This document shows, in pieces, positions 25,575 to 39,063 of a stretch of DNA of 64,000 nucleotides. Position numbers and translations under genes: made by a program. The stretch's first letter is position 1. Every line of letters begins with the position of its first letter. The notes beneath the pieces are model-generated. The model was not told the DNA's origin, made no database searches, and saw only the letters and a program-made list of their open reading frames with translations. This DNA is from Gordonia sp. ABSL11-1 (lineage in GTDB: Bacteria; Actinomycetota; Actinomycetes; Mycobacteriales; Mycobacteriaceae). The DNA is taken from assembly GCF_030315685.1 (NCBI RefSeq), contig NZ_JASXSI010000003.1:1-64000 (forward strand). The letters are read 5' to 3'.

Positions 25575-25673
25575 GCAGGCGCACGTCGCACCGCTCGCAC
25601 CGGTCACCAGGCCGGGAACCGCGCGCAGTGGGAGGTCCGGCGCGACGGACGGATGTCGTCACGGAGGAACACG

Positions 25674-26930
25674 ATGAGTGGATCAGACGCGGGTGTGGTG
25701 ATCGTGGGAGCAGGACTCGGTGGTATCCGGGTCGCGGAGAGTCTGCGGGCCAACAACTACGACGGCCAGATCACCCTGATCGGCGCGGAATCCCACCCAC
25801 CATACGACCGTCCGCCGCTGTCGAAGTCGGTGTTGCTGGGTAAGGACGACCGTGTCGACCTCAAGCCCGCGGAGTTCTTCGACGAGTCGTCGATCGGGCT
25901 GCGGGTCGGCGAGCGGGTGAGTGCCATCTCGCCGGACGATCACACCGTCACGGTCGAGAAACTCGACGATCCGGCGTCCAGCGAGACCGTCGGCTACGAC
26001 ACACTGATCCTCGCCACGGGACTGAGCCCGCGGACCCTGCCGGGCGCCGACGGTGTGTCGGGAATCCACGTCCTGCGCTCGATCGACGACGCGCTGGCCT
26101 TGCGCGGTGAGATCGACGACGCGTCGACCGCGGTCATTGTCGGCGCGGGGTTCATCGGTTGTGAGGTGGCGGCCAGTCTCAATCAGCGCGGGGTCACGGT
26201 CACTCTCGTCGAACCCGCGCCCACACCGCTCGCCGCCGCGCTCGGCACCGAGGTCGGCGCCCTTGTGACCCGACTGCATCAGGCCAACGGTGTCGACGTG
26301 CGCACCGGCGTCGGCGTGGAGGAGATCCTGACCGACGTGTCGCAGGAACCGGCATCGCCGGCTGATACGGGAACGCAGGCGACGAAGGTACGCGGCGTAC
26401 GGCTTGCCGACGGATCCGAGGTGACCGCCGACATCGTGGTCGTCGGGATCGGCTCCATCCCGGTGGTCGACTATCTCGACGGCTCCGGAATCGAGCTCGC
26501 CCCACGCGAATCCGGCGGCGGTATCGCCTGCGACGAGAACGGCGCGACGTCGGCGCCGGACATCTATGCGCTCGGCGATGTGGCGAACTGGCGGCTCGAA
26601 TCGGGAAAGACACGGCGCGTCGAGCACTGGACCCACACGGTCGAGCAGGCGACCGTCGTCGCTCATCGCATCGCGAAGACCGACGCGATGATCCCCGCCA
26701 CGCCCGCCTACTTCTGGAGTGATCAGTACAACCTGAAGATCCAGGTGCTGGGCCGGCCGGAATCCACCGACCAGTTGCACCTCGTCGACGACGACGGCAC
26801 CAAGTTCCTCGGCTACTACAGCCGGGACGGCATCCTGACCGGCGTCGTCGGTGCCGGGAAGGTGGGCGCGGTGATGAGGACCCGACCCAAGTTGCTGACC
26901 CCGACGCCGATCGCGGACGTCCTCGGCTGA
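25674..26930 (+). CDS. FAD-dependent ferredoxin reductase-type oxidoreductase
   Basis: 418 residues from ATG 25674, behind GGAGG. The FAD-binding GAGLGGIRVAESLR motif opens the protein, PPYDRPPLSK follows, and the NAD(H)-binding GAGFIGCEVAASL lies near residue 160. The ALGDVANW motif near residue 305 contacts FAD. This is the pattern of rhodocoxin/putidaredoxin reductases, which pass electrons from NADH to a ferredoxin serving P450s or Rieske oxygenases. The Thr-rich ILATGLSPR segment is typical. It may serve the P450 at 20 kb, but no ferredoxin gene is nearby. Confidence 0.88.
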   Translation: MSGSDAGVVIVGAGLGGIRVAESLRANNYDGQITLIGAESHPPYDRPPLSKSVLLGKDDRVDLKPAEFFDESSIGLRVGERVSAISPDDHTVTVEKLDDPASSETVGYDTLILATGLSPRTLPGADGVSGIHVLRSIDDALALRGEIDDASTAVIVGAGFIGCEVAASLNQRGVTVTLVEPAPTPLAAALGTEVGALVTRLHQANGVDVRTGVGVEEILTDVSQEPASPADTGTQATKVRGVRLADGSEVTADIVVVGIGSIPVVDYLDGSGIELAPRESGGGIACDENGATSAPDIYALGDVANWRLESGKTRRVEHWTHTVEQATVVAHRIAKTDAMIPATPAYFWSDQYNLKIQVLGRPESTDQLHLVDDDGTKFLGYYSRDGILTGVVGAGKVGAVMRTRPKLLTPTPIADVLG

Positions 26931-28140: not shown

Positions 28141-29196
28141 TCAGAACTCGACCCGGAGTGAATCCGATGTGGGATGCGCCTGACAGCCGAGGATGTAGCC
28201 GTCGGCGATGTCCTCGGGATCGAGCGCCCCCGTGTTCTCCATCTCGACCGTACCCTCTGTCAGGGTGCAGGCACAGGAACCACATTCGCCTTCTTGGCAC
28301 GAGTACGGGGCATCGAGACCGGCCGCGAGCATGATGTCGATCAGTGAACGCTTCCGCGGCCATTTGAGGCTGTGGGTCTCGCCGTCGAGATCGACCTCCA
28401 CCGTCGCGGACTCGGCGTCCTCATCCTCGGTGACCTCGTCGAGTTCGACGTCGGCGAAGGGATCGCCGGACAGCGAGTTGTAGACCTCGGTGTGGACGTT
28501 GTGGTGCGGAAAGCCCGCTCCGGCAAGGCCTTTGTGGACGGCATCCATGAACGGCCCGGGTCCGCAGAGGTACGCGGTGTGGTCGGCGACGGCGCGGAAC
28601 GTGGTCGCGAGCACCTGGTCGTTCGGCAGACCCTGCAGTGATTCCAGCCAGTGGATCACGGTCAGCCGATCAGCATGGGCCTGCTGGAGCTCGCGCAGTT
28701 CGTCGGCGAAGATCACGTCGTCGACGCCGCGGTTGGCGTAGAAGAACGTGATCGGCTCGGACCCGGAGTGCAGCGCCGCCTTGAGGATCGACATCACCGG
28801 TGTGACGCCGCTGCCCGCGGCGATCAGCAGCAGCTTGGTGTCGAGCTCCTTCGGGGTGAACACGCCCGAGGGGGGCAGCACCTCGATCTGTGTGCCCTTG
28901 GTGAGGTTGTCGCAGACCCAGTTGGAGCCGTAGCCGTCGGCGGTGCGTTTGACGGTCACCTTCGGCCGGGAGTCGGTGCGGGGTGAGGACGCCAGCGAGT
29001 AGCATCGCGCGACCGAGCCGGTCTGCTCGCTCGGTATCCGCAGCGTCAGGAACTGCCCGGGCTTGTAGTCGGTGAAGGATTCCCGGTGGACTTCGGGGAC
29101 CTCGAACACGACCGACCGGGCATCCGCGGTCTCGTCGATGACCTCGGCCACCGTCAGGATCACGCTGCGCGAGCCATGCGGGGTCAGCTCGGTCAT
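28141..29196 (-). CDS. kshB: 3-Ketosteroid-9-alpha-monooxygenase, ferredoxin reductase component
   Basis: 351 residues. From the N-terminus: an FAD-binding barrel (RCYSLASSP near residue 75), an NAD-binding domain (GSGVTPVMSIL, YLCGPGPFMDAV) and a C-terminal plant-type 2Fe-2S domain with Cys ligands in CQEGECGSCACTL and a later Cys in LGCQAHP. This arrangement and the sequence match KshB, which passes electrons from NADH to KshA to hydroxylate ring B of steroids. ATG 29196 is favoured because the upstream residues are not KshB-like. A perfect KstR box lies 68 bp upstream. kshA is not in the window. Confidence 0.9.
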   Translation of the reverse strand: MTELTPHGSRSVILTVAEVIDETADARSVVFEVPEVHRESFTDYKPGQFLTLRIPSEQTGSVARCYSLASSPRTDSRPKVTVKRTADGYGSNWVCDNLTKGTQIEVLPPSGVFTPKELDTKLLLIAAGSGVTPVMSILKAALHSGSEPITFFYANRGVDDVIFADELRELQQAHADRLTVIHWLESLQGLPNDQVLATTFRAVADHTAYLCGPGPFMDAVHKGLAGAGFPHHNVHTEVYNSLSGDPFADVELDEVTEDEDAESATVEVDLDGETHSLKWPRKRSLIDIMLAAGLDAPYSCQEGECGSCACTLTEGTVEMENTGALDPEDIADGYILGCQAHPTSDSLRVEF

Positions 29197-29263: not shown

Positions 29264-29277
29264 TAGAACACGTTCTA
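29264..29277. promoter_or_regulatory. KstR-type operator (TAGAACACGTTCTA)
   Basis: It matches the published KstR consensus TnnAACnnGTTnnA at every fixed position. It lies in the gap between kshB (reading away) and mftR (convergent), so it should control kshB. KstR is the TetR-type repressor of cholesterol catabolism in Mycobacterium and relatives. The match is seen; occupancy is inference. Confidence 0.8.
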
Positions 29278-29303
29278 CCTAGTCTACTCACAAGGTGCGC
29301 CGA

Positions 29304-29924
29304 TCATGACAGCGCGTCCACTCCCTGCGCAAGAGTACGGCTGCCGGCGACGATCAGGGCCTGGAGGTCGGTGCCCGGATGGGTCAGCCACTGGTCGTAG
29401 GCGGCGAGGGCGGTGCCCAGGCACAACCAGGCGACCGTCTGGGGGAGGTGGCCGTTCTCGGTGAGGCCGAGTCGGTGGGCGCAGAACTCGGCGATGACCT
29501 GCCGCCACTCGGCATACATGAGCATCGAATGCGCTTGGAGCGCAGGCACGCCCAGGAGGAGTGACATCCGACGGCGATGTCCGGGGAGCTCGCTCTCCGG
29601 CACCTCGTTGAAGGAGATCAGCGCCTGCTGAAGGGCGTCGGCCATCGGCAGATCCGCCGGGATGTCGGCCAGCAGGGTGCGCATCTCGGCCAGGTGGGAG
29701 TCGAAATCACCCCAGGCGATGGCGTTCTTGGACGGGTAGTAGCGGAACAGGGTCCGGCGGGCGATCCCGACGGCGTCCGCGACGTCGTCGACGCTGGTCT
29801 CCTCGAATCCCCGGGAGGTGAACAGATCGATCGCCACTGCGCTGATCTCGGCGCGCGAGGTGACCGGCCGTCGTCCCGGTTGGGCCGAGCGTGGGGGGGC
29901 GGGTCTCGCGCCGGGTGTGCTCAT
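29304..29924 (-). CDS. mftR: TetR-family regulator of the mycofactocin locus
   Basis: About 206 residues from ATG 29924; a GTG six bases upstream is possible. The helix-turn-helix (TSVDDVADAVGIARRTLFRYYPSKNAI) lies at about residues 43-70. The sequence and its place divergent from mftA identify it as MftR, the acyl-CoA-responsive TetR regulator of mycofactocin synthesis. The 111-bp gap to mftA holds a -10 box and a small inverted repeat that could be its operator. The C-terminal domain contains MSLLLGVPALQAH and WLCLGTALAAYD. Confidence 0.9.
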   Translation of the reverse strand: MSTPGARPAPPRSAQPGRRPVTSRAEISAVAIDLFTSRGFEETSVDDVADAVGIARRTLFRYYPSKNAIAWGDFDSHLAEMRTLLADIPADLPMADALQQALISFNEVPESELPGHRRRMSLLLGVPALQAHSMLMYAEWRQVIAEFCAHRLGLTENGHLPQTVAWLCLGTALAAYDQWLTHPGTDLQALIVAGSRTLAQGVDALS

Positions 29925-29984
29925 CGTCACCTGTCCATTTGATCAGTTTTCCGCCAGGGGTGGTTTTGATGCACCGAGTGCCAT

Positions 29985-30009
29985 TATAGTGTCAGGTGAT
30001 CCGCATCAC
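29985..30009 (+). promoter_or_regulatory. mftA promoter -10 (TATAGT) and inverted repeat GTGAT-N4-ATCAC
   Basis: TATAGT at 29985-29990 is a good -10 with only a weak -35 (GGTTTT). The inverted repeat at 29996-30009 covers the expected transcription start. A repressor bound there would block mftA, so it is a candidate MftR site. Both elements are seen; the function is inferred. Confidence 0.45.
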
Positions 30010-30035
30010 TACCGTCAGAAAATGGAGGTTGGATC

Positions 30036-30131
30036 ATGGCAGATCAGTCAGCCACGTCGCAGGACACCGAACTCGTGGGCGAGTCGCTCGTCGAAGAGGT
30101 GTCGATCGACGGGATGTGCGGGGTCTACTGA
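30036..30131 (+). CDS. mftA: Mycofactocin precursor peptide
   Basis: A 31-residue gene. The C-terminus ends IDGMCGVY, the conserved core of MftA, in which the terminal Val-Tyr dipeptide becomes the redox cofactor after processing by MftC, MftE and MftD. The N-terminal part ([14 protein letters not shown]) is the leader recognised by MftB. GGAGGTTGGATC precedes the ATG. The stop overlaps the mftB start (TGATG), so the two are translationally coupled. Confidence 0.95.
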
Positions 30132-30484
30132 TGTCGACCCCGGCATCGACTCCGGTCTCCGGCGGTCGCTCTGCGGCCGCCGGGGCCCGGCCCTCGCCCA
30201 GTGACCTCAACCGTTTCTCGCTCGACGATGCCTGGACGCTCAACCCGAAGGTGGCGTTGCGTCCGGAGCCGTTCGGCGCGCTCCTGTATCACTTCGGTAC
30301 GCGCAAGTTGTCGTTCCTCAAGAACCTGACCGTCGTCGGGATCGTGCGCTCGCTGGCCGATCACGCGACCGCCGAGGACGCGCTGATCGACGCCGGGATC
30401 GGCGAGGCCGACCGCCCGCTGTACGTGCAGGCCCTCGGTGCGCTCGCCGACTCGGGCATGATCGTCCGCCGCCGCGCCGCCTGA
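30131..30484 (+). CDS. mftB: Mycofactocin precursor-binding chaperone
   Basis: 117 residues, a PqqD-like RiPP recognition element. FSLDDAWTLNPKVALRPEPFGALLYHFGTRKLSFLKN is the typical MftB core, followed by a helical part ending DSGMIVRRRAA. MftB binds the MftA leader and delivers it to the radical SAM enzyme MftC. An N-terminal extension of about 30 Ser/Ala/Pro-rich residues is longer than the core requires. It begins at the last base of the mftA stop codon. The next gene, mftC, follows after 49 bp. Confidence 0.93.
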   Translation: MSTPASTPVSGGRSAAAGARPSPSDLNRFSLDDAWTLNPKVALRPEPFGALLYHFGTRKLSFLKNLTVVGIVRSLADHATAEDALIDAGIGEADRPLYVQALGALADSGMIVRRRAA

Positions 30485-30533
30485 CCGCTTCTCGACGCCC
30501 CTTTTCGACTCGACGCCCAGAGGATTCTTCTCG

Positions 30534-31826
30534 ATGACCACACTCGAAATGCCGCCTACCACAACCGCTCTCGTCGGATCGGAACCGCCCGGTGTGCCGC
30601 CCGCTGCTGCGCAGACCCCGAAGGTCGGTCGCCTCGTCGATCAGTTCGAGAAGGGACTGGACGCGCCGATCTGCCTGACCTGGGAGCTGACGTATGCCTG
30701 CAATCTGGCGTGTGTGCACTGCCTGTCGTCGTCGGGTAAGCGTGATCCCCGCGAGTTGTCGACCGAGCAGTGCAAGGCGATCATCGATGAGCTGCAGCGG
30801 ATGCAGGTCTTCTACGTCAACATCGGCGGCGGCGAACCGACGGTCCGCTCCGATTTCTGGGAGCTGGTCGACTACGCGACCAGCCATCAGGTGGGGGTGA
30901 AATTCTCCACCAACGGGTTGCGTATCGACAAGGAGGTCGCCGCCCGACTGGCCGCCTCGGACTATGTGGACGTGCAGATCTCGCTCGACGGTGCCACCGC
31001 CGAGGTCAATGACGCCGTGCGCGGGCCGGGATCCTTCGACATGGCGGTGCGAGCGTTGGAGAACCTGCACGAGGCGGGTTTCGCCGACGCCAAGATCAGT
31101 GTCGTGATGACCCGGCAGAACGTGGATCAGCTCGACGAGTTCAAGGCACTGGCCGATCGCTACAACGCGACGCTGCGCATCACGCGGCTGCGTCCGTCGG
31201 GTCGTGGCGCCGATGTCTGGGATGACCTGCACCCGCTTCCCGAACAGCAGCGATCGTTGTACGAATGGCTTGTCGCACACGGGGACAACGTGTTGACCGG
31301 CGACTCGTTCTTCCATCTGTCGGCGTTCGGCGGCACGGGTGGGTCGGGTGCGCTGCCGGGTCTGAACCTGTGTGGCGCCGGACGTGTCGTCTGTCTGATC
31401 GATCCGGTCGGCGACGTCTATGCCTGCCCGTTCGCGATCCATGAGAACTTCCTCGCCGGCAACATCACCACCGACGGAGGTTTCCAGGAGATCTGGCAGC
31501 GTTCGGAGCTGTTCACCGAGTTGCGTGAGCCGCAGAACGCCGGCGCCTGCACCAAGTGCGCGCATTTCGATGCCTGCCGCGGTGGCTGCATGGCCGCCAA
31601 GTTCTTCACCGGCCTGCCGCTGGCCGGTCCGGACCCGGAGTGTGTGCAGGGTTACGGCGAGCAGCTTCTTGCCGGTGAGCGTTCCAAACCGACGGCGAAC
31701 AAGGATCATTCGCGTGGCACCCCGTTGACCCTGATGACACGGCGGCCGGATGGGGACCTGTTGCCCGTCGGCGCGCCGCCGTCGAAGAGCTGTGACGAGA
31801 ACCCGCTCGCCGGGTTCACCCCCTAG
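30534..31826 (+). CDS. mftC: Mycofactocin radical SAM maturase
   Basis: 430 residues. The radical SAM cluster CxxxCxxC is seen as Cys56, Cys60 and Cys63 (YACNLACVHC). The GGGEP motif for SAM binding lies near residue 98. The SPASM part near residues 280-365 has the extra iron-sulphur Cys ligands (LNLCGAGR, VYACPFAIH, CTKCAHFDACRGGCM). MftC decarboxylates the terminal tyrosine of MftA and forms a carbon-carbon link to the preceding valine. It lies in the mftABC unit, and a 16-bp tandem repeat follows it. Confidence 0.97.
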   Translation: MTTLEMPPTTTALVGSEPPGVPPAAAQTPKVGRLVDQFEKGLDAPICLTWELTYACNLACVHCLSSSGKRDPRELSTEQCKAIIDELQRMQVFYVNIGGGEPTVRSDFWELVDYATSHQVGVKFSTNGLRIDKEVAARLAASDYVDVQISLDGATAEVNDAVRGPGSFDMAVRALENLHEAGFADAKISVVMTRQNVDQLDEFKALADRYNATLRITRLRPSGRGADVWDDLHPLPEQQRSLYEWLVAHGDNVLTGDSFFHLSAFGGTGGSGALPGLNLCGAGRVVCLIDPVGDVYACPFAIHENFLAGNITTDGGFQEIWQRSELFTELREPQNAGACTKCAHFDACRGGCMAAKFFTGLPLAGPDPECVQGYGEQLLAGERSKPTANKDHSRGTPLTLMTRRPDGDLLPVGAPPSKSCDENPLAGFTP

Positions 31827-31888
31827 CCGCGACGAACCATCGCCGCGACCAACCACCGCCGCGACGAACCACCGCCACGACGAACACC
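31826..31888 (+). repeat. Four tandem 16-bp repeats between mftC and mftD
   Basis: The unit GCCGCGACGAACCACC is repeated four times with few changes, beginning at the last base of the mftC stop codon. It fills much of the 148-bp gap before mftD. No strong hairpin is formed by one unit. Confidence 0.85.
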
Positions 31889-31974
31889 AGAACTGTATCG
31901 GCGACACGGACGCCCGGCATGCGGTCGGGCGATGCCGTGCTGCCACCGGAAGAAGAAAACAGGTAGGAAACACA

Positions 31975-33189
31975 ATGGCCAAGAAACCGTGGGTACAGAA
32001 TCCGTGGGCTCGCAATCCCTGGTTCGAGACCGTCCACGAGGCGCAGCGTCGCGCCAAGAAGCGGCTGCCCAGATCCGTGTACTCGTCGCTGGTCGCCGGC
32101 ACCCAGGCCGGGGTCACGCTCCGCGACAACACCGAGGCGTTCTCCGAGCTCGGCTTCGCCCCGCACGTGGTCGGCGCACAGCCCGACCGCGAGTTGTCGA
32201 CGTCGGTGATGGGTCAGGAGATCTCGTTCCCGGTGATGATCTCGCCGACCGGTGTGCAGGCCGTCGACCCCGACGGCGAGGTCGCCGTAGCCCGGGCAGC
32301 GGCGGCCCGCGGTACCGCGATGGGCTTGTCCAGCTTCGCCTCTCATCCGATCGAAGAGGTCACGGCGGTCAACGACAAGATCTTCTTCCAGCTCTACTGG
32401 CTCGGCACCCGCGACGACATCCTGGCCCGCGTGCAGCGCGCCAAGGAGGCCGGAGCGAAGGGACTCATCGTCACCACCGACTGGGTGTTCAACATCGGTC
32501 GCGACTGGGGCAGCCCGGAGATCCCGGAGAAGGTGGATATCCCGGCGCTGCTGAAGCTCGCTCCGGAGATCGCGGTCAAGCCGCGGTATGCGCTCGACTG
32601 GATTCGCGACGGCAAGGTCGAGATCCCGGACCTCACCGCACCGAACCTGACCCCCAAGGGCGAACAGGGGCCGACGTTCTTCGGCGCCTACGGGCAGTGG
32701 ATGAACACACCCCCGCCCACCTGGGAGGACCTGCAGTGGCTGCGTGAGCAGTGGGACGGGCCGTTCATGGTCAAGGGCATCACCCGCCTCGACGACGCCA
32801 AACGGGCCGTCGACATCGGAGCCTCGGCGATCTCGGTCTCCAATCACGGCGGTAACAACCTCGACGGCACGCCGGCGACGATCCGTCTGCTCGGGCCGAT
32901 CGCCGACCAGGTCGGTGGACAGGTGGACGTGCTCCTCGACGGCGGCATCCGCCGCGGCGGCGACGTCGCCAAGGCGCTGGCCCTCGGTGCACGTGCCGTG
33001 ATGGTCGGCCGCGCCTATCTGTGGGGTCTCGGTGCCAACGGGCAGGCCGGCGTCGAGAATGTTCTCGACCTCCTGCGCATGGGTCTCGACGGGGTCGTGA
33101 TGGGCTTGGGGCACAAGAGTGTTCACGAATTGTCGCGGGACGATCTGATCATCCCCGACGACTTCGAGCGGTCCTTCGGCCAGGCCTGA
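31975..33189 (+). CDS. mftD: Mycofactocin biosynthesis FMN-dependent oxidase
   Basis: 404 residues of the FMN-dependent alpha-hydroxy-acid dehydrogenase family. The active-site features are present: VMISPTGVQ near residue 80, FFQLYW for FMN binding, the lysine in FMVKGITRLDDA, and the SNHGGNNLDGTPA motif with the catalytic histidine. LLDGGIRRGGDVAKALALGARAVMVGR binds FMN phosphate. MftD oxidatively deaminates the AHDP intermediate released by MftE. ATG 31975 gives the usual AKKPWVQNPW start, behind AGGTAGGAA. It is followed by the SDR gene at 33278, not by mftE as in the compact loci. Confidence 0.95.
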   Translation: MAKKPWVQNPWARNPWFETVHEAQRRAKKRLPRSVYSSLVAGTQAGVTLRDNTEAFSELGFAPHVVGAQPDRELSTSVMGQEISFPVMISPTGVQAVDPDGEVAVARAAAARGTAMGLSSFASHPIEEVTAVNDKIFFQLYWLGTRDDILARVQRAKEAGAKGLIVTTDWVFNIGRDWGSPEIPEKVDIPALLKLAPEIAVKPRYALDWIRDGKVEIPDLTAPNLTPKGEQGPTFFGAYGQWMNTPPPTWEDLQWLREQWDGPFMVKGITRLDDAKRAVDIGASAISVSNHGGNNLDGTPATIRLLGPIADQVGGQVDVLLDGGIRRGGDVAKALALGARAVMVGRAYLWGLGANGQAGVENVLDLLRMGLDGVVMGLGHKSVHELSRDDLIIPDDFERSFGQA

Positions 33190-33223
33190 TCTGCGCGGGG
33201 CGCCCAGTCCGCCCGAGCCAAAG

Positions 33224-33237
33224 TAGAACGTGTTACA
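33224..33237. promoter_or_regulatory. KstR-type operator (TAGAACGTGTTACA) inside the mft locus
   Basis: It again fits TnnAACnnGTTnnA at all fixed positions. It lies 41 bp upstream of the mycofactocin-type SDR and just after mftD. This suggests the SDR has its own promoter repressed by KstR and released by steroid intermediates. The match is direct; regulation is inference. Confidence 0.75.
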
Positions 33238-33277
33238 GTTTTTCGAAACGGAACACGGAAGATGAGGACTCGGGCGG

Positions 33278-34090
33278 ATGGGGCAGTTCGACGGCAAGGT
33301 CGTCTACATCACGGGCATCGCCCGCGGGCAGGGGCGCAATCACGCGGTGCGGTTCGCCCGCGAGGGTGCGGCCGTCATCGGTATGGACATCGCCGGTGAG
33401 GTCGCCGACCACACCACCTATCCGGCCGCCACGCCCGACGACCTCCGGGAAACCGTCCGCCTCGTCGAAGAGGCCGGCGGCAAGATCCTTGCCCGGCAAG
33501 GCGATACGCGCGATCTGGCGTTCCAAGAGGAGCTCGTGGCCGCCGGCGTCGAGCAGTTCGGACGTCTCGACGTCGTGGTCGCCAATGCGGGTCTGCTCAC
33601 CTGGGGCAAGGTGTGGGAGCTGACGGAGGAACAGTTCACCGACGTCGTCGACATCAATCTCGTCGGGACCTGGAAGACGCTACGCGCCTCGATCCCGGCA
33701 ATGTTGGAGGCGGACAACGGCGGATCGATCGTGGTCATCAGCTCGTCCGCCGGACTGAAGGCGATGCCGCTGCAGGCGTCCTACTCCGCGTCGAAGTTCG
33801 GGTTGCGCGGCCTGACCCAGTCCGCGGCCAAGGAACTCGGCCACCACCGCATCCGGGTCAACAGCGTGCACCCCTACGCGGTCGACACGCCGATGGGCGT
33901 CGCCGACACCGAAGCTCACCGCATCTTCGGGATTCCCTGGGTCGGACCGCATCTCACGTCGATGATGAACCACCACCCGGTCGCCTCCCTCGACGAGATC
34001 TCCGACGCCGTGCTCTACCTCGCGTCGGACGGCGCGAAAGCCGTCACCGGCGCGGAATTCTCGATCGACATGGGCGCGACCAAGGTCTGA
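33278..34090 (+). CDS. Mycofactocin-coupled SDR-family oxidoreductase
   Basis: 270 residues. The cofactor motif TGIARGQGRNHAVRFA with GQGR in place of the usual GIG is characteristic of the mycofactocin-coupled SDR subfamily, which binds NAD(H) non-exchangeably. NAG follows near residue 108, the catalytic Ser in ISSSAGLKA and the YSASK pair near residue 168. It probably oxidises a secondary alcohol, with mycofactocin taking the electrons. It lies within the mft locus behind a KstR-type box, which points to a steroid or related substrate. The gene is convergent with the Mcr-type gene. Confidence 0.9.
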   Translation: MGQFDGKVVYITGIARGQGRNHAVRFAREGAAVIGMDIAGEVADHTTYPAATPDDLRETVRLVEEAGGKILARQGDTRDLAFQEELVAAGVEQFGRLDVVVANAGLLTWGKVWELTEEQFTDVVDINLVGTWKTLRASIPAMLEADNGGSIVVISSSAGLKAMPLQASYSASKFGLRGLTQSAAKELGHHRIRVNSVHPYAVDTPMGVADTEAHRIFGIPWVGPHLTSMMNHHPVASLDEISDAVLYLASDGAKAVTGAEFSIDMGATKV

Positions 34091-34233: not shown

Positions 34234-35346
34234 TCAGTCCTGCCAGAGGGTGGCCGGGTCGGTGGCCTCGCGGGCGGGTGCGGTGGGCGTCTCCGGCGAG
34301 GTGCGGGAAAAGCGCGGGGCGACCTGGGCCTGCGTGACGCCGTCGATCTCGACGAGGTTCGCGCGGGCAGCCATGTGCGGATCGGCCGAGGCCTCACCGA
34401 AGTCGAGAACCGGTGACGTGCAGGCGTCCGTGCCGTCGAAGATCTTCGTCCACTCGTCGCGGGTGCGCGACTTGAAGGTGTCGGTGAAGATCTGTTCGAG
34501 CTTCGGCCAGTTCGCGAAGTCGTTCTGTGCGGGCAGATCGGCGTCGGCCAGTCCGAGTCCGGTGAGCAACTCGGCATAGAACTGCGGCTCGATCGCGCCC
34601 ACCGCCATGTACTTGCCGTCGGAGGTCTCGTACACCTCGTAGTACGGCGCGCCGGTGTCGAGCATGTTCACGCCGCGCGCGTCGCTCCACAGCCCGGTGC
34701 CCCGGAAGGCCCACATCATCTGACCGAGCACCGACGCCCCGTCGACCATCGCGGCGTCGACGACCTGACCCGTCCCCGACGACTGGCGCTCCAAGAGTGC
34801 GGCGAGGACGCCGACGACGAGGAACATCGAACCGCCGCCGAAGTCACCCGCCAGATTGAGCGGGGGGACCGGCCGGTCCTCCTTACGGCCGATCGCATGC
34901 AGCATCCCGGTCAGCGAGATGTAGTTGATGTCGTGGCCGGCACGGTCGGCGCGCGGACCCTCCTGACCCCAGCCGGTCATCCGTCCGTAGATCAGACCCG
35001 GATTCACCGCCGCGAGATCGTCGGGGCCGAAACCCAGCCGCTCCATGACCCCGGGACGGAAACCCTCGATGACGACATCGGCCTTGGCGACCAGACCGAG
35101 GATCGTCTCCCGATCGCCCGGATCCTTCAGATTCGCCTCGACGACCGGCCGACCACGGAGCAGCGCGTCCGCCTTGCGGTCTGCCGCGGGGAGCGATCCG
35201 GGGCGCTGAACGCGTACGACATCCGCACCGAGGTCCGCCAGCAGCATCGCCGCATGCGGTCCGGGGCCGATGCCCGCGAACTCGATCACCCGGATTGCGC
35301 TGAGGGGCCCGCTCTTTCCGCTGCTGTGCGGCGCAGTTGACGTCAT
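34234..35346 (-). CDS. Mcr-type CoA-transferase/alpha-methylacyl-CoA racemase
   Basis: 370 residues of the CaiB/BaiF family [34 protein letters not shown] at the N-terminus, [32 protein letters not shown], and [12 protein letters not shown] with the catalytic Asp/His set match alpha-methylacyl-CoA racemases. In actinobacteria such enzymes epimerise the C25 methyl of the cholesterol side chain so beta-oxidation can proceed. A strong GGGAGGAC precedes ATG 35346. It is divergent from mftE and breaks the mft gene order. Confidence 0.88.
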
Positions 35347-35531: not shown

Positions 35532-36293
35532 ATGGAGCGACGGTCGGGCCTCGGGCAGATGTGCTGGCCCGAACTGTCGGACCGCACCGTCACCCTGCTC
35601 GTGCCGACCGGTGCAACCGAGCAGCACGGGCCGCACCTCCCGCTCGACACCGACACCCGGATCGCCGGGCTGGTCGCCTCGCGTGCGGCGGCCCGCCTCG
35701 CCGGCGACGACCCCACCGACGACAACCGCACCGACGACGACCCCACCGACGACGGCCGGCTGATCGTCACCGCGCCCGCCCTGTCCTACGGCGCGAGCGG
35801 CGAGCACGAGGGTTTCCCGGGCACGATCTCCGTCGGACACGAGGCCCTGCACCTGCTGCTCATCGAGTACGGGCGCAGCGCCTGCCGGTGGGCCGACCGG
35901 CTGGTCTTCGTCAACGGTCACGGTGGCAACGGTGCCACCCTGGTCGCGGCCGTCGAACGGCTGCGATACGAGGGCCGGGACGTCGCGTGGTTCCCGTGCG
36001 CCGTCCCCGGCGGCGATGCGCACGCAGGTGTCACGGAAACATCTGTGCTCCTTCACTTCTCACCCGAGTCCGTGTCCATGTCGGTGGCCGAGACGGGCAA
36101 CGTCGCGCCCATCGCCACGTTGCTGCCCACCCTGCGCGACGGCGGTGTGGCCGCGGTGAGCCGTAACGGTGTGCTGGGCGACCCGGCCGGTGCGACGCAG
36201 GAGCACGGCGCGGACATCACCGAGACGATGATCGCCGGCCTGGTGTCGGCGGTGCGCGACTGGAACGTCGGGGACAGGGGACGCCTACGATGA
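35532..36293 (+). CDS. mftE: Mycofactocin precursor peptide peptidase
   Basis: 253 residues of the creatininase family. The metal ligands are seen in TGATEQHGPHLPLDTD (Glu, His and Asp near residues 31-42), VNGHGGNG (His near residue 130) and a later Glu in GVTETSVLLH. MftE cuts the modified MftA to release AHDP. An acidic insert of about 18 residues (DDPTDDNRTDD) made of 15-bp repeats interrupts the region near residues 58-77. It overlaps mftF by four bases (ATGA) and seems to start a separate mftEFG unit. Confidence 0.93.
   Translation: MERRSGLGQMCWPELSDRTVTLLVPTGATEQHGPHLPLDTDTRIAGLVASRAAARLAGDDPTDDNRTDDDPTDDGRLIVTAPALSYGASGEHEGFPGTISVGHEALHLLLIEYGRSACRWADRLVFVNGHGGNGATLVAAVERLRYEGRDVAWFPCAVPGGDAHAGVTETSVLLHFSPESVSMSVAETGNVAPIATLLPTLRDGGVAAVSRNGVLGDPAGATQEHGADITETMIAGLVSAVRDWNVGDRGRLR
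35703..35759 (+). repeat. 15-bp tandem repeat inside mftE
   Basis: GACGACCCCACC-type 15-bp units occur about 3.8 times in frame, coding for DDPTD/DDNRT/DDDPT blocks. It lies in a surface loop of the peptidase between the first metal ligands and the body of the fold. Confidence 0.75.
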
Positions 36294-37726
36294 CCGCGGT
36301 GGACAAGGAGCCGCAGGCCACCGCCACGGTCGACAACACGTTGCCCGACGGCTTCCAGGTGCAGATCGACATGCGATGCGCGCGGCATCGCGACCTTCGC
36401 TACCTCGTGGGCGGTTCGCCGACCCGGATGCTCCGACTGACCGACGCGGCCCTCGGCATGACCTCCGCCGACGGCCGCATCGAGGTGTGCGACCCCGCGA
36501 CCCGGAGCCTCGCCCGCCGGCTCCTCGACAGCGGAATCGCCAACCCGCGCCCCATGTTCGGGCCTCGGCCCGACGATGTGACCGTCGTCGTACCGGTGCG
36601 CGGAAATCAGTCGGGGGTGGATCGGCTCCTTCGTGCGGTCGCCGGTACGAAGGTCATCGTCGTCGACGACGGCTCGCCGCAGCCGATCGTCGCCACCGGT
36701 GCCGACGTCACCGTGATCCGGCTCGACGAGAACCGGGGACCGTCAGCCGCGCGGAACGTGGGCGCCGCCGCCGCGACGACCGACTTCGTCGCCTTCCTCG
36801 ATTCGGATGTCGTCCCTCCCGCGGACTGGTTGACGATGCTCCTCGGGCACTTCTCCGATCCGGCGGTCGCCATCGTGGCGCCCCGGATCGTCGGACTCAG
36901 CCGCGCGGACCGTGGCGCGTCGATCGCGGAGCGCTACGAGAACGGCTACTCCTCGCTCGACATGGGACCCGAGGAATGTGCCGTCGTCCCCGGAAGTCGC
37001 GTCCCCTACGTCCCGAGCGCAGCGATGGTGGTGCGGCGCGGCATGTTTGACGGATTCGACGAAACGCTTCGGGTGGCCGAGGACGTGGATCTGTGCTGGC
37101 GGACGCACAAGGCGGGGTGGCGGGTGCGCTACGACCCGGTGGCCCGGGTCTCCCATGATCACCGCACCGATGTCCGGTCGGTGCTCGATCGGCGGCGCTA
37201 TTACGGCACCGGCGCGTCCTACCTCGCGGACCGACACGGCGGATTCGCCGCGCCGGTCGTGATGTCGATCCCCATGGCCATCGCCGTCGTCGCCCTGATG
37301 ACCCGGACCCGGGTCGGCCTCGCGATCGCCGTCATCATTCTCGGGCAGCTCGGGATGCGACTCCGACAGCGACTGGGCGAGCTGCCGGGCGCACCCCTCG
37401 TCGCGACCCAGATGACCGGCCGGGCGGTCGGATTCGGTCTGTTGCAGGCAGGTGGTGCGGTCTGCCGACACTACTGGCCGGTCGCGCTGATCCTCGCGGT
37501 GATCTCGGCCCGCTTCCGGCGGCTGGCGGTCGAGATCGCCGTCGCCGAGGGGGTCGTATCGTGGGTGCGTCACGCCGTCGCCGAACCCGCGACGGGCCCG
37601 GCGATGGGGCCGCTGACCTATACGCTGTTCCGCCGGCTCGACGACCTCGCCTACGGTGCCGGCCTCTGGCAGGGGGCCCTCACGCACCGCGATCTCGGCG
37701 CACTCCGACCGGTCCTGACGACATAG
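36290..37726 (+). CDS. mftF: Mycofactocin glycosyltransferase
   Basis: 478 residues. A GT2 domain occupies about residues 95-320: VTVVVPVRGN, VIVVDDGSPQ, ENRGPSAARNVG, FLDSDVVPPADW (metal site) and RVAEDVDLCWRTHKAG. Hydrophobic segments around 325-345 and 395-410 anchor it to the membrane. The N-terminal 90 residues are the MftF-specific extension (LPDGFQVQIDMRC). MftF adds beta-1,4-glucose units to mycofactocin. It overlaps mftE by four bases and precedes mftG by two. Confidence 0.95.
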   Translation: MTAVDKEPQATATVDNTLPDGFQVQIDMRCARHRDLRYLVGGSPTRMLRLTDAALGMTSADGRIEVCDPATRSLARRLLDSGIANPRPMFGPRPDDVTVVVPVRGNQSGVDRLLRAVAGTKVIVVDDGSPQPIVATGADVTVIRLDENRGPSAARNVGAAAATTDFVAFLDSDVVPPADWLTMLLGHFSDPAVAIVAPRIVGLSRADRGASIAERYENGYSSLDMGPEECAVVPGSRVPYVPSAAMVVRRGMFDGFDETLRVAEDVDLCWRTHKAGWRVRYDPVARVSHDHRTDVRSVLDRRRYYGTGASYLADRHGGFAAPVVMSIPMAIAVVALMTRTRVGLAIAVIILGQLGMRLRQRLGELPGAPLVATQMTGRAVGFGLLQAGGAVCRHYWPVALILAVISARFRRLAVEIAVAEGVVSWVRHAVAEPATGPAMGPLTYTLFRRLDDLAYGAGLWQGALTHRDLGALRPVLTT

Positions 37727-37728
37727 CC

Positions 37729-39063
37729 ATGTCGCGTGACGATCTGCCGTCGCGCGTCGACGTGATCGTCGTGGGCGCAGGGAGTGCCGGATGTGTCATC
37801 GCAGAACGGCTGTCGCGCAATCCCGATCGCTCGGTCCTGCTGCTCGACCGTGGGCCGCACGAATGGCCGACCACGCAGATCCGTGACCTGGGAGTACTGC
37901 CCATCTCCGCCGGCTCGCCCTACGCCCAGGCCTACGACGAGGCATCCGGGCTCGGTGTCATCCGCGGCCGCGGACTCGGCGGGTCGTCGTCGGTCAATGG
38001 CGGCTACTTCCTCCGATGGCATCCGGGTGATTTCGACGACTGGCCCACCGGCTGGACGGCCGACGACGTCGCGGCCGCTTACGCAGAGCTCGATGCGCCG
38101 GGCGGAACCATGGGCGTGTCGGCCTTCGCCGACGACGAACTCGCCGACGTGGTACCGAGATTCGAGGCGTACTGGGCGCGGTCGATGCCGATCCGCCGCG
38201 CCGACGACCCGTGGCCGATCGTCGGAGTGAACCGGGTGCGGTCGAATCGCGAGGGCGACGGGCGTCGCACGGCTGCCGAGGCCTACCTGCGGGCGGCACT
38301 CGGCCGGCAGAACCTGGTCGTCGCGACCGTGGCGGAGGTGACCGCGGTGACGTCGGTCGGTCGCACCGTGACAGGCGTCGACGTCGGTGGCATCACCATC
38401 GACTGCGGTGAGGTGGTCCTGAGCGCCGGCACCCTGGGCACCGCGGCGATCCTGCTGCGGTCGGGACTCGACATGCTCGGCGACGCCGATGAGTTGCCGG
38501 TCCACGAGCATCGCGAGGTGCTCGTGCACTACCGGGCCCGGTGGGGATCCGGGCGGGCGGCGACACGGCCACTCCTGCAGTCGGTGGTGCACACCGCTGA
38601 TGACATCGAGATCCGTTGCTACAGCGACGATATGGCGAACTACATCAAAGGTCTCCCGCCGGCGGGGCCCGCGATGGGTGTCGCGGTGATGCGGCCGGGG
38701 ACACCCGGGTCGGTGCGGCTGAACCGGACCGGGTTGACCATCGATCTCGGGACGGTCGACGACGTGGCGGCCACCCGCTTCGAGCACGGTGTGGGTGCCG
38801 TCGCCGAGATGCTGCGGTCGGATCTGTTCGCGGGCGACGTGAATCCGGACTCGGTCGCCGCCGACCCGGTGGTGCGCACCTCGCAGCACGCGTGGGGCAG
38901 CATGCCGATGGGTGAGCGGACCGACTGGCTCGGCGGGGTGATCGGAGTACACGGACTGCGGGTTGTCGACGGGTCGATCCTGCCCACGGCCGGCCGCAGC
39001 GGTCCGCACGCCACGATCATGATGACCGCATGCCGTATCGGGGACCGCCTCCTGGAGCGCTGA
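37729..39063 (+). CDS. mftG: Mycofactocin dehydrogenase, GMC family
   Basis: 444 residues from ATG 37729, two bases after mftF. The FAD-binding GAGSAGCVIAERLS opens the protein, and the GMC signature GRGLGGSSSVNGGYFLR follows near residue 84. The active-site region near the C-terminus has SQHAWGSMPMG and TAGRSGPHATIMMTA. It is somewhat shorter than typical GMC oxidases of 500 or more residues, as is usual for MftG. MftG passes electrons from mycofactocinol to the respiratory chain. It closes the mft locus. Confidence 0.93.
   Translation: MSRDDLPSRVDVIVVGAGSAGCVIAERLSRNPDRSVLLLDRGPHEWPTTQIRDLGVLPISAGSPYAQAYDEASGLGVIRGRGLGGSSSVNGGYFLRWHPGDFDDWPTGWTADDVAAAYAELDAPGGTMGVSAFADDELADVVPRFEAYWARSMPIRRADDPWPIVGVNRVRSNREGDGRRTAAEAYLRAALGRQNLVVATVAEVTAVTSVGRTVTGVDVGGITIDCGEVVLSAGTLGTAAILLRSGLDMLGDADELPVHEHREVLVHYRARWGSGRAATRPLLQSVVHTADDIEIRCYSDDMANYIKGLPPAGPAMGVAVMRPGTPGSVRLNRTGLTIDLGTVDDVAATRFEHGVGAVAEMLRSDLFAGDVNPDSVAADPVVRTSQHAWGSMPMGERTDWLGGVIGVHGLRVVDGSILPTAGRSGPHATIMMTACRIGDRLLER

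Follow-up and report, generated by a model that had tools for sequence, protein, structure and literature searches.

The question raised by this locus is whether steroid sensing and mycofactocin-dependent alcohol oxidation are transcriptionally linked in Gordonia. The first 64,000 nucleotides of contig NZ_JASXSI010000003.1 of Gordonia sp. ABSL11-1 (the window) carry genes for mycofactocin (MFT) biosynthesis (mft), a gene for an MFT-coupled short-chain dehydrogenase/reductase (SDR) and, next to them, a gene resembling kshB. It had been predicted from the sequence that two perfect operators of the KstR type bracket the mycofactocin start genes. The boxes themselves were confirmed by an exact pattern scan, which matched TNNAACNNGTTNNA at just two places in the window, one upstream of the kshB-like gene and one upstream of the SDR gene (Table 1). 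Dinucleotide shuffles of the window contained a mean of 0.11 matches, and two matches were reached in 1 of 100 shuffles. The TnnAACnnGTTnnA palindrome used as a criterion for the KstR regulon was likewise found in the promoter regions of both genes. Given the regulon context, the conservation and the published binding of identical 14-mers described below, the assignment of SDR and kshB to the KstR regulon is strongly supported, and KstR very probably occupies the SDR operator in this strain and regulates the gene.

A KstR gene, on whose presence the original prediction depended, was found in the genome (NF033703, 337.7 bits, cutoff 280) and in 59 of 59 Gordonia genomes. The DNA-binding region of the protein aligns closely with that of the solved KstR 5ua2, which we take to be the M. 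tuberculosis structure, and the stretch ADVAVGTLYRYFPSKVHLLV is identical in the two. Exact TNNAACNNGTTNNA sites number 43 in the whole genome, compared with 12 for a reversed-pattern control and ~13 expected when the count in 3 Mb of Markov-simulated sequence is scaled up to genome size. The TAGAAC half-site is present in 26 of the 43; the 17 sites that do not have it are mostly intragenic and look like background. With a matrix built from 21 of the 24 TAGAAC-type sites outside the window, which had been pre-selected as fitting the pattern, the two window boxes scored 26.7 and 21.5 and the next best window site 10.0, and no site in the simulated 3-Mb sequence scored 21.4 or more. Both boxes thus stand above every simulated site.

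The genes beside the motif sites look like a KstR regulon. KstR, 3-oxosteroid 1-dehydrogenase (kstD), two proteins of the SDR family and a ligase of the FadD8 type exceed NCBIfam cutoffs. Named by eye were genes resembling those for KshA, CYP125, thiolase and ferredoxin reductase, as well as acyl-CoA dehydrogenase genes, one of which is divergent from kstR. Among the latter, the KshA-like gene (L021:10642-11862) had no NCBIfam match at 1e-30, and an HsaD-like gene (L026:2761-3618) fell below its NCBIfam cutoff.

Conservation of the SDR box was examined in 200 bp of upstream sequence across Gordonia, with orthologs assigned by best match and identity (SDR 70–100% identical within Gordonia, where paralogs reach at most 50%, 55–68% in other genera and 50–59% in the genus labelled g29). 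SDR orthologs were found in 58 of 59 Gordonia genomes (the window and 57 other loci), and the SDR box is perfect in all 58; these genomes are related by descent and do not represent 58 independent events, and weight is therefore placed on the contrast between the box and its flanks. In an alignment of the upstream sequences anchored at the box, identity was 96–100% in columns 0 to 16, versus 32–63% in columns -35 to -4. Of the 41 Gordonia loci in which a kshB start was present, the window included, 37 have a perfect kshB box and four a box with one mismatch. In 481,355 bases of sequence from the 57 other loci, the exact motif occurs 94 times, of which 57 are at SDR, 36 at kshB and one elsewhere.

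The box also stays with the SDR gene where the locus is rearranged. Nine of the 57 loci have mftD on the opposite strand, downstream of the SDR gene, and all nine keep the box. It is likewise kept in all six loci that show no MftB, MftC, MftD, MftR or KshB match in the fetched stretch; in these, mftC is found on another contig in two genomes (G023 and G058) and ~3–9 kb from the SDR gene in four. Chance matching to a loose motif, which might be invoked given that ~12–13 exact matches per genome are expected, is refuted because all 58 genomes have a perfect box between flanks that are weakly conserved; with the SDR box also scoring above any site in the 3-Mb simulation, this explanation retains practically no probability.

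Direct binding data exist for both 14-mers in M. tuberculosis. Its KstR bound 29-bp probes containing TAGAACGTGTTACA (Rv3503c/Rv3504 and Rv3515c/Rv3516), and in electrophoretic mobility shift assays (EMSA) a probe containing TAGAACGTGTTCTA, the kstR operator, which is the 14-mer of the kshB box (PMC1995591, Table 3). A second possibility is that the SDR promoter is controlled not by KstR but by some other TetR-type regulator whose operator is nearly identical, which would explain a near-invariant, asymmetric box. The letters TAGAACGTGTTACA are indeed found in 55 of the 58 Gordonia sequences, the exceptions being two TAGAACATGTTACA and one TACAACGTGTTACA, and the centre of the kshB box is more variable across the genus. 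However, the boxes of kstD and the KshA-like gene in this genome share the GTTACA half with the SDR box, M. tuberculosis KstR binds the identical 14-mer, and the operator of MftR, the TetR regulator encoded at the locus, is different. The invariance can also be accounted for by overlap with the promoter, as the 3' half of the box runs into TACAGT, which looks like a -10 element and is invariant in 58 of 58 sequences. A different regulator is consequently considered very unlikely. The ATG follows the box by 8–10 nt in 33 of the 58 Gordonia sequences and by 40 nt in the window, and the short spacing is as expected for leaderless transcripts. An overlap of operator and -10 element has been proposed for kstR itself (PMC1995591).

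The predicted arrangement holds in that mftR-mftABCD is enclosed by the two boxes, but neither box is placed at the promoter for MFT biosynthesis. Between mftR and mftB, the best KstR matrix score was 3.9 across 43 Gordonia loci, and KstR control of the whole mft operon was rejected for want of a box in this region. An MftR-type palindrome, sought between mftR and mftB only, was present with two mismatches in 34 of the 43 loci and with 3–5 in the other nine, whereas shuffled controls of the region gave a 2-mismatch palindrome in 3 of 43. Because this region has no KstR-like site and has an MftR-type palindrome, the mft biosynthesis genes are, by this evidence, not direct KstR targets. The situation resembles the published control by MftR of its operator Omft (PMC8728441) in that the locus has mftR and, ahead of mftA, a palindrome of the MftR type, and that system differs from the KstR boxes in its operator sequence and in governing biosynthesis, not the SDR promoter. 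Cholesterol failed to release MftR (PMC8728441). The proposed transcriptional link between steroid sensing and mycofactocin-dependent oxidation therefore fits the client enzymes but does not extend to mftA-F.

The SDR is not the only MFT-linked dehydrogenase with a KstR box. One of the boxes in this genome precedes a gene for an N,N-dimethyl-4-nitrosoaniline (NDMA)-dependent alcohol dehydrogenase (ADH; TIGR03989, 584 bits, cutoff 440), a family that, like TIGR03971 to which the SDR belongs, was defined as exclusive to mycofactocin species (Haft 2011, PMC3023750). Upstream stretches of 300 bp were examined at the 30 best-scoring ADH loci of 59 Gordonia genomes, the best 30 of 54 g29 genomes and 12 loci each of the genera g27 and g9, as well as in further genera. 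The ADH box is perfect in 28 of the 30 Gordonia loci, with one mismatch in one, and in another (L304) the sequence breaks off 76 bp before the gene. Perfect boxes were also found in six of the seven other genera examined: Williamsia (g18) 6/6, g10 9/9, Jongsikchunia (g12) 1/1, g27 11/12, and the Rhodococcus types g9 and g23 with 12/12 and 24/26. In g29, labelled Mycobacterium-like from its gene order, none of the 30 ADH loci had a perfect box, and five had a one-mismatch site scoring 15–20; a GAGAAC site resembling these was EMSA negative at Rv0223c (PMC1995591).

For the SDR, 79 orthologs from outside Gordonia were scanned over 250 bp upstream. Perfect boxes were found in 9 of 9 in g10 and 14 of 17 in g27, where some sites match the pattern and score low (12.9), and the single SDR of g12 has a box with one mismatch. 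In g29 a perfect box was found within 300 bp upstream in 29 of the 30 best SDR loci, from 57 genomes with a match. A ferredoxin reductase gene directly follows the SDR in 16 of these 30 loci, which we take to be the Rv0687-Rv0688 order, and mftR is near one locus; the 13 boxed loci that have no such neighbour may represent a paralog. The boxed enzyme is thus the SDR in g29, the ADH in the Rhodococcus types, and both in Gordonia, g10 and g27, and the two boxes partly alternate between genera. In 8 of the 10 genera examined, KstR would then control one or more MFT-linked dehydrogenases; none was seen in g4, and g26 is represented by one SDR. Whether MFT-dependent alcohol oxidation is on this basis a regular arm of sterol catabolism across mycolic-acid actinobacteria, with the enzyme alternating, we judge to be about evenly balanced. 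Two cautions apply: one Gordonia genome (G010, 90% complete) keeps the TIGR03989 ADH without an mftC match, and in g4, whose SDRs are unboxed, the two genomes listed without a match had no TIGR03989 ADH either at the threshold used.

The whole explanation, namely that a KstR-repressed SDR promoter serves sterol-linked alcohol oxidation via mycofactocin, is considered probable. The SDR gene would have its own promoter, repressed by a KstR dimer at TAGAACGTGTTACA, which would overlap the probable -10 element and block RNA polymerase. As sterol-derived KstR ligands build up, SDR, kshB, kstD and other sterol genes would be derepressed together. The SDR could then oxidise an alcohol from sterol breakdown, its trapped NAD handing the hydride on to mycofactocin, and MftG would recycle mycofactocin to respiration. 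The same KstR wiring would act on the NDMA-dependent ADH, with mftA-F remaining under MftR. Relatives of the SDR do hold non-exchangeable NAD (PMC5264612). The boxes, the regulon, the conservation and the KstR gene are demonstrated here, and KstR binding to the identical 14-mer comes from published work on a relative; that KstR occupies the operator in this strain is inferred, as are the -10 overlap, the ligand and the substrate.

A role of the SDR as a client of the steroid pathway is plausible, and a sterol as its substrate is rather favoured. The main competing view accepts KstR control of the SDR and takes the substrates to be other terpenoid or cyclic, carveol-like alcohols that accompany sterols in the habitat, so that the co-regulation would be ecological. 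The nearest solved relative (3pgx) is named carveol dehydrogenase, as are most of the nearest solved relatives, and in M. smegmatis MSMEG_1410, which has been paired with Rv0687 (PMC8281650), is linked to carveol use (PMC8728441). This view leaves unexplained the box on the unrelated MFT-linked family TIGR03989 in 7 of 8 genera, the kshB neighbourhood, and the methylacyl-CoA racemase gene found at the locus in the window, g10, g12 and Williamsia, and it is regarded as rather unlikely, sterol-linked oxidation being the preferred reading.

A precedent for the link between the SDR and KstR is Rv0687, itself a TIGR03971 MFT-coupled SDR, at which the motif GTTAGAACACGTTACAGTTT was listed in M. tuberculosis (Kendall 2007, PMC1995591, Table 3), and a motif inside the operon at MSMEG_1410 is mentioned in the text of that paper. 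Mycofactocin was described in 2011 (PMC3023750), after that table. The published KstR regulon of M. tuberculosis and M. smegmatis shares with the present one the motif, the regulator family and the sterol genes, and the available text of PMC1995591 differs in having no genus-wide conservation, TIGR03989 ADH or alternation between genera. The papers on the TIGR03971 and TIGR03989 nicotinoproteins (PMC3023750 and PMC5264612) describe families to which both enzymes belong above curated cutoffs, and mention KstR and cholesterol zero times. No paper joining KstR and mycofactocin was found among the passages of open-access literature that were consulted. What is new is the depth of conservation and the boxing of a second MFT-linked family, TIGR03989.

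In addition to the shared descent of the Gordonia genomes, several observations weigh against KstR control of the SDR with a sterol substrate. Although KstR is present in the genera that supplied the 79 SDR orthologs, the box was perfect in only 3 of 6 SDRs in Williamsia, 1 of 11 in g23, and none in g9 (0/13), g4 (0/21) or g26 (0/1); a missing KstR as the cause of the unboxed g4 SDRs was rejected, since g4 has KstR. In this genome, two adjacent TIGR03971 SDR genes above cutoff lie ~2–3 kb from kstR (G000:C68:135656-137354; L309 and L311), and neither these nor a third elsewhere had a KstR box in the stretches scanned, so that KstR control of the pair was rejected. In the published table, EMSA is given as 'ND' for Rv0687, and the motif listed at Rv0223c was not bound by KstR in EMSA (PMC1995591, Table 3). 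Lastly, besides the link of MSMEG_1410 to carveol, its deletion left growth on ethanol and on cholesterol in ethanol at the wild-type level (PMC6529628), which also favours carveol-like substrates; possible reasons for the normal growth are that ethanol is itself a carbon source and that other MFT enzymes are redundant with this one.

M. tuberculosis had been predicted to require its mycofactocin genes when growing on cholesterol, a need later traced to the ethanol solvent (PMC6529628). If sterol catabolism does regularly draw on MFT-dependent oxidation, the reported need would be partly real and not solely a solvent effect. The deep conservation of the KstR operator on MFT-linked dehydrogenases suggests that evolution keeps tying such enzymes to sterol use, and turns the old puzzle into the direct question of which sterol alcohol they oxidise. 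Gordonia, with both SDR and ADH boxed, would be a convenient genus in which to ask it.

Table 1. Features of the mft locus and its KstR boxes in the window.
Feature	Position	Strand	Remarks
kshB-like reductase	28141..29196	-	FAD/NAD domain and C-terminal 2Fe-2S ferredoxin domain; PaaE-type architecture
KstR box (kshB operator)	29264..29277		TAGAACACGTTCTA; TAGAACGTGTTCTA on kshB strand; 67 nt before kshB-like ATG
mftR, TetR regulator of mft genes	29304..29930	-	TIGR03968, 278.9 bits, cutoff 224.9
MftR-operator-like palindrome	29970..29988		TGCACCGAGTGCCATTATA; upstream of mftA; not a KstR site; 2 mismatches to T-N2-GGCA-N5-TGCC-N2-A (PMC8728441)
mftA, precursor peptide	30036..30131	+	C-terminal IDGMCGVY; read from sequence
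mftB	30131..30484	+	TIGR03967, 102.9 bits, cutoff 33
mftC, radical SAM maturase	30534..31826	+	TIGR03962, 645.8 bits, cutoff 265
mftD	31975..33189	+	TIGR03966, 708.1 bits, cutoff 470.85
KstR box (SDR operator)	33224..33237	+	TAGAACGTGTTACA; 40 nt before SDR ATG
Candidate -10 element TACAGT	33234..33239	+	Overlaps 3' half of SDR box; six bases invariant in 58/58
Mycofactocin-coupled SDR (carveol-dehydrogenase type)	33278..34090	+	TIGR03971, 327.9 bits, cutoff 300; best solved relative 3pgx, E 6e-86
alpha-Methylacyl-CoA racemase (MCR family)	34234..35346	-	Between SDR and mftE; E 6e-147 to 1x74 and related MCR chains
mftE	35532..36293	+	TIGR03964, 332.3 bits, cutoff 172
mftF	36290..37726	+	TIGR03965, 468.7 bits, cutoff 280
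mftG (GMC oxidoreductase)	37729..39063	+	TIGR04542, 614.5 bits, cutoff 400

The gene assignments at the boxes differ in firmness. That one box precedes an MFT-coupled SDR is upheld by the NCBIfam cutoff, but the kshB-like gene behind the other is below every cutoff: the reductase matched no NCBIfam model at cutoff and had no specific solved relative. Its name is presumed from resemblance and context. The racemase gene between SDR and mftE has no KstR box of its own within the window. Methylacyl-CoA racemase is used in sterol side-chain breakdown, and an MCR-family homolog is similarly placed in g10, g12 and most Williamsia loci. A ferredoxin-reductase-like gene (25653-26930, + strand) lies ~6 kb from the SDR gene, and its homolog (48–53% identity) is the gene directly 3' of the SDR in the 16 g29 loci.

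Co-occurrence of TIGR03971 with the mft genes holds within Gordonia, as 58 of 59 genomes have matches to both this SDR and MftC and the remaining one, G010, to neither. G010 is a 3.0-Mb assembly that keeps KstR along with the TIGR03989 ADH. Elsewhere in the genome of ABSL11-1, a KstR box (L016:4745) is located 45 nt before an aldehyde dehydrogenase-like gene (L016:4804-6306, + strand) that is below all curated cutoffs; its product and the boxed ADH would together form a route from alcohol through aldehyde to acid. One Gordonia genome has a further perfect box, TAGAACGCGTTCTA at L101:3395, ~1.3 kb from its SDR box, and in three ADH loci (L290, L291 and L292) tandem KstR-type sites, TGAAACACGTTACA followed by TGGAACACGTTACA, are found upstream of the gene.

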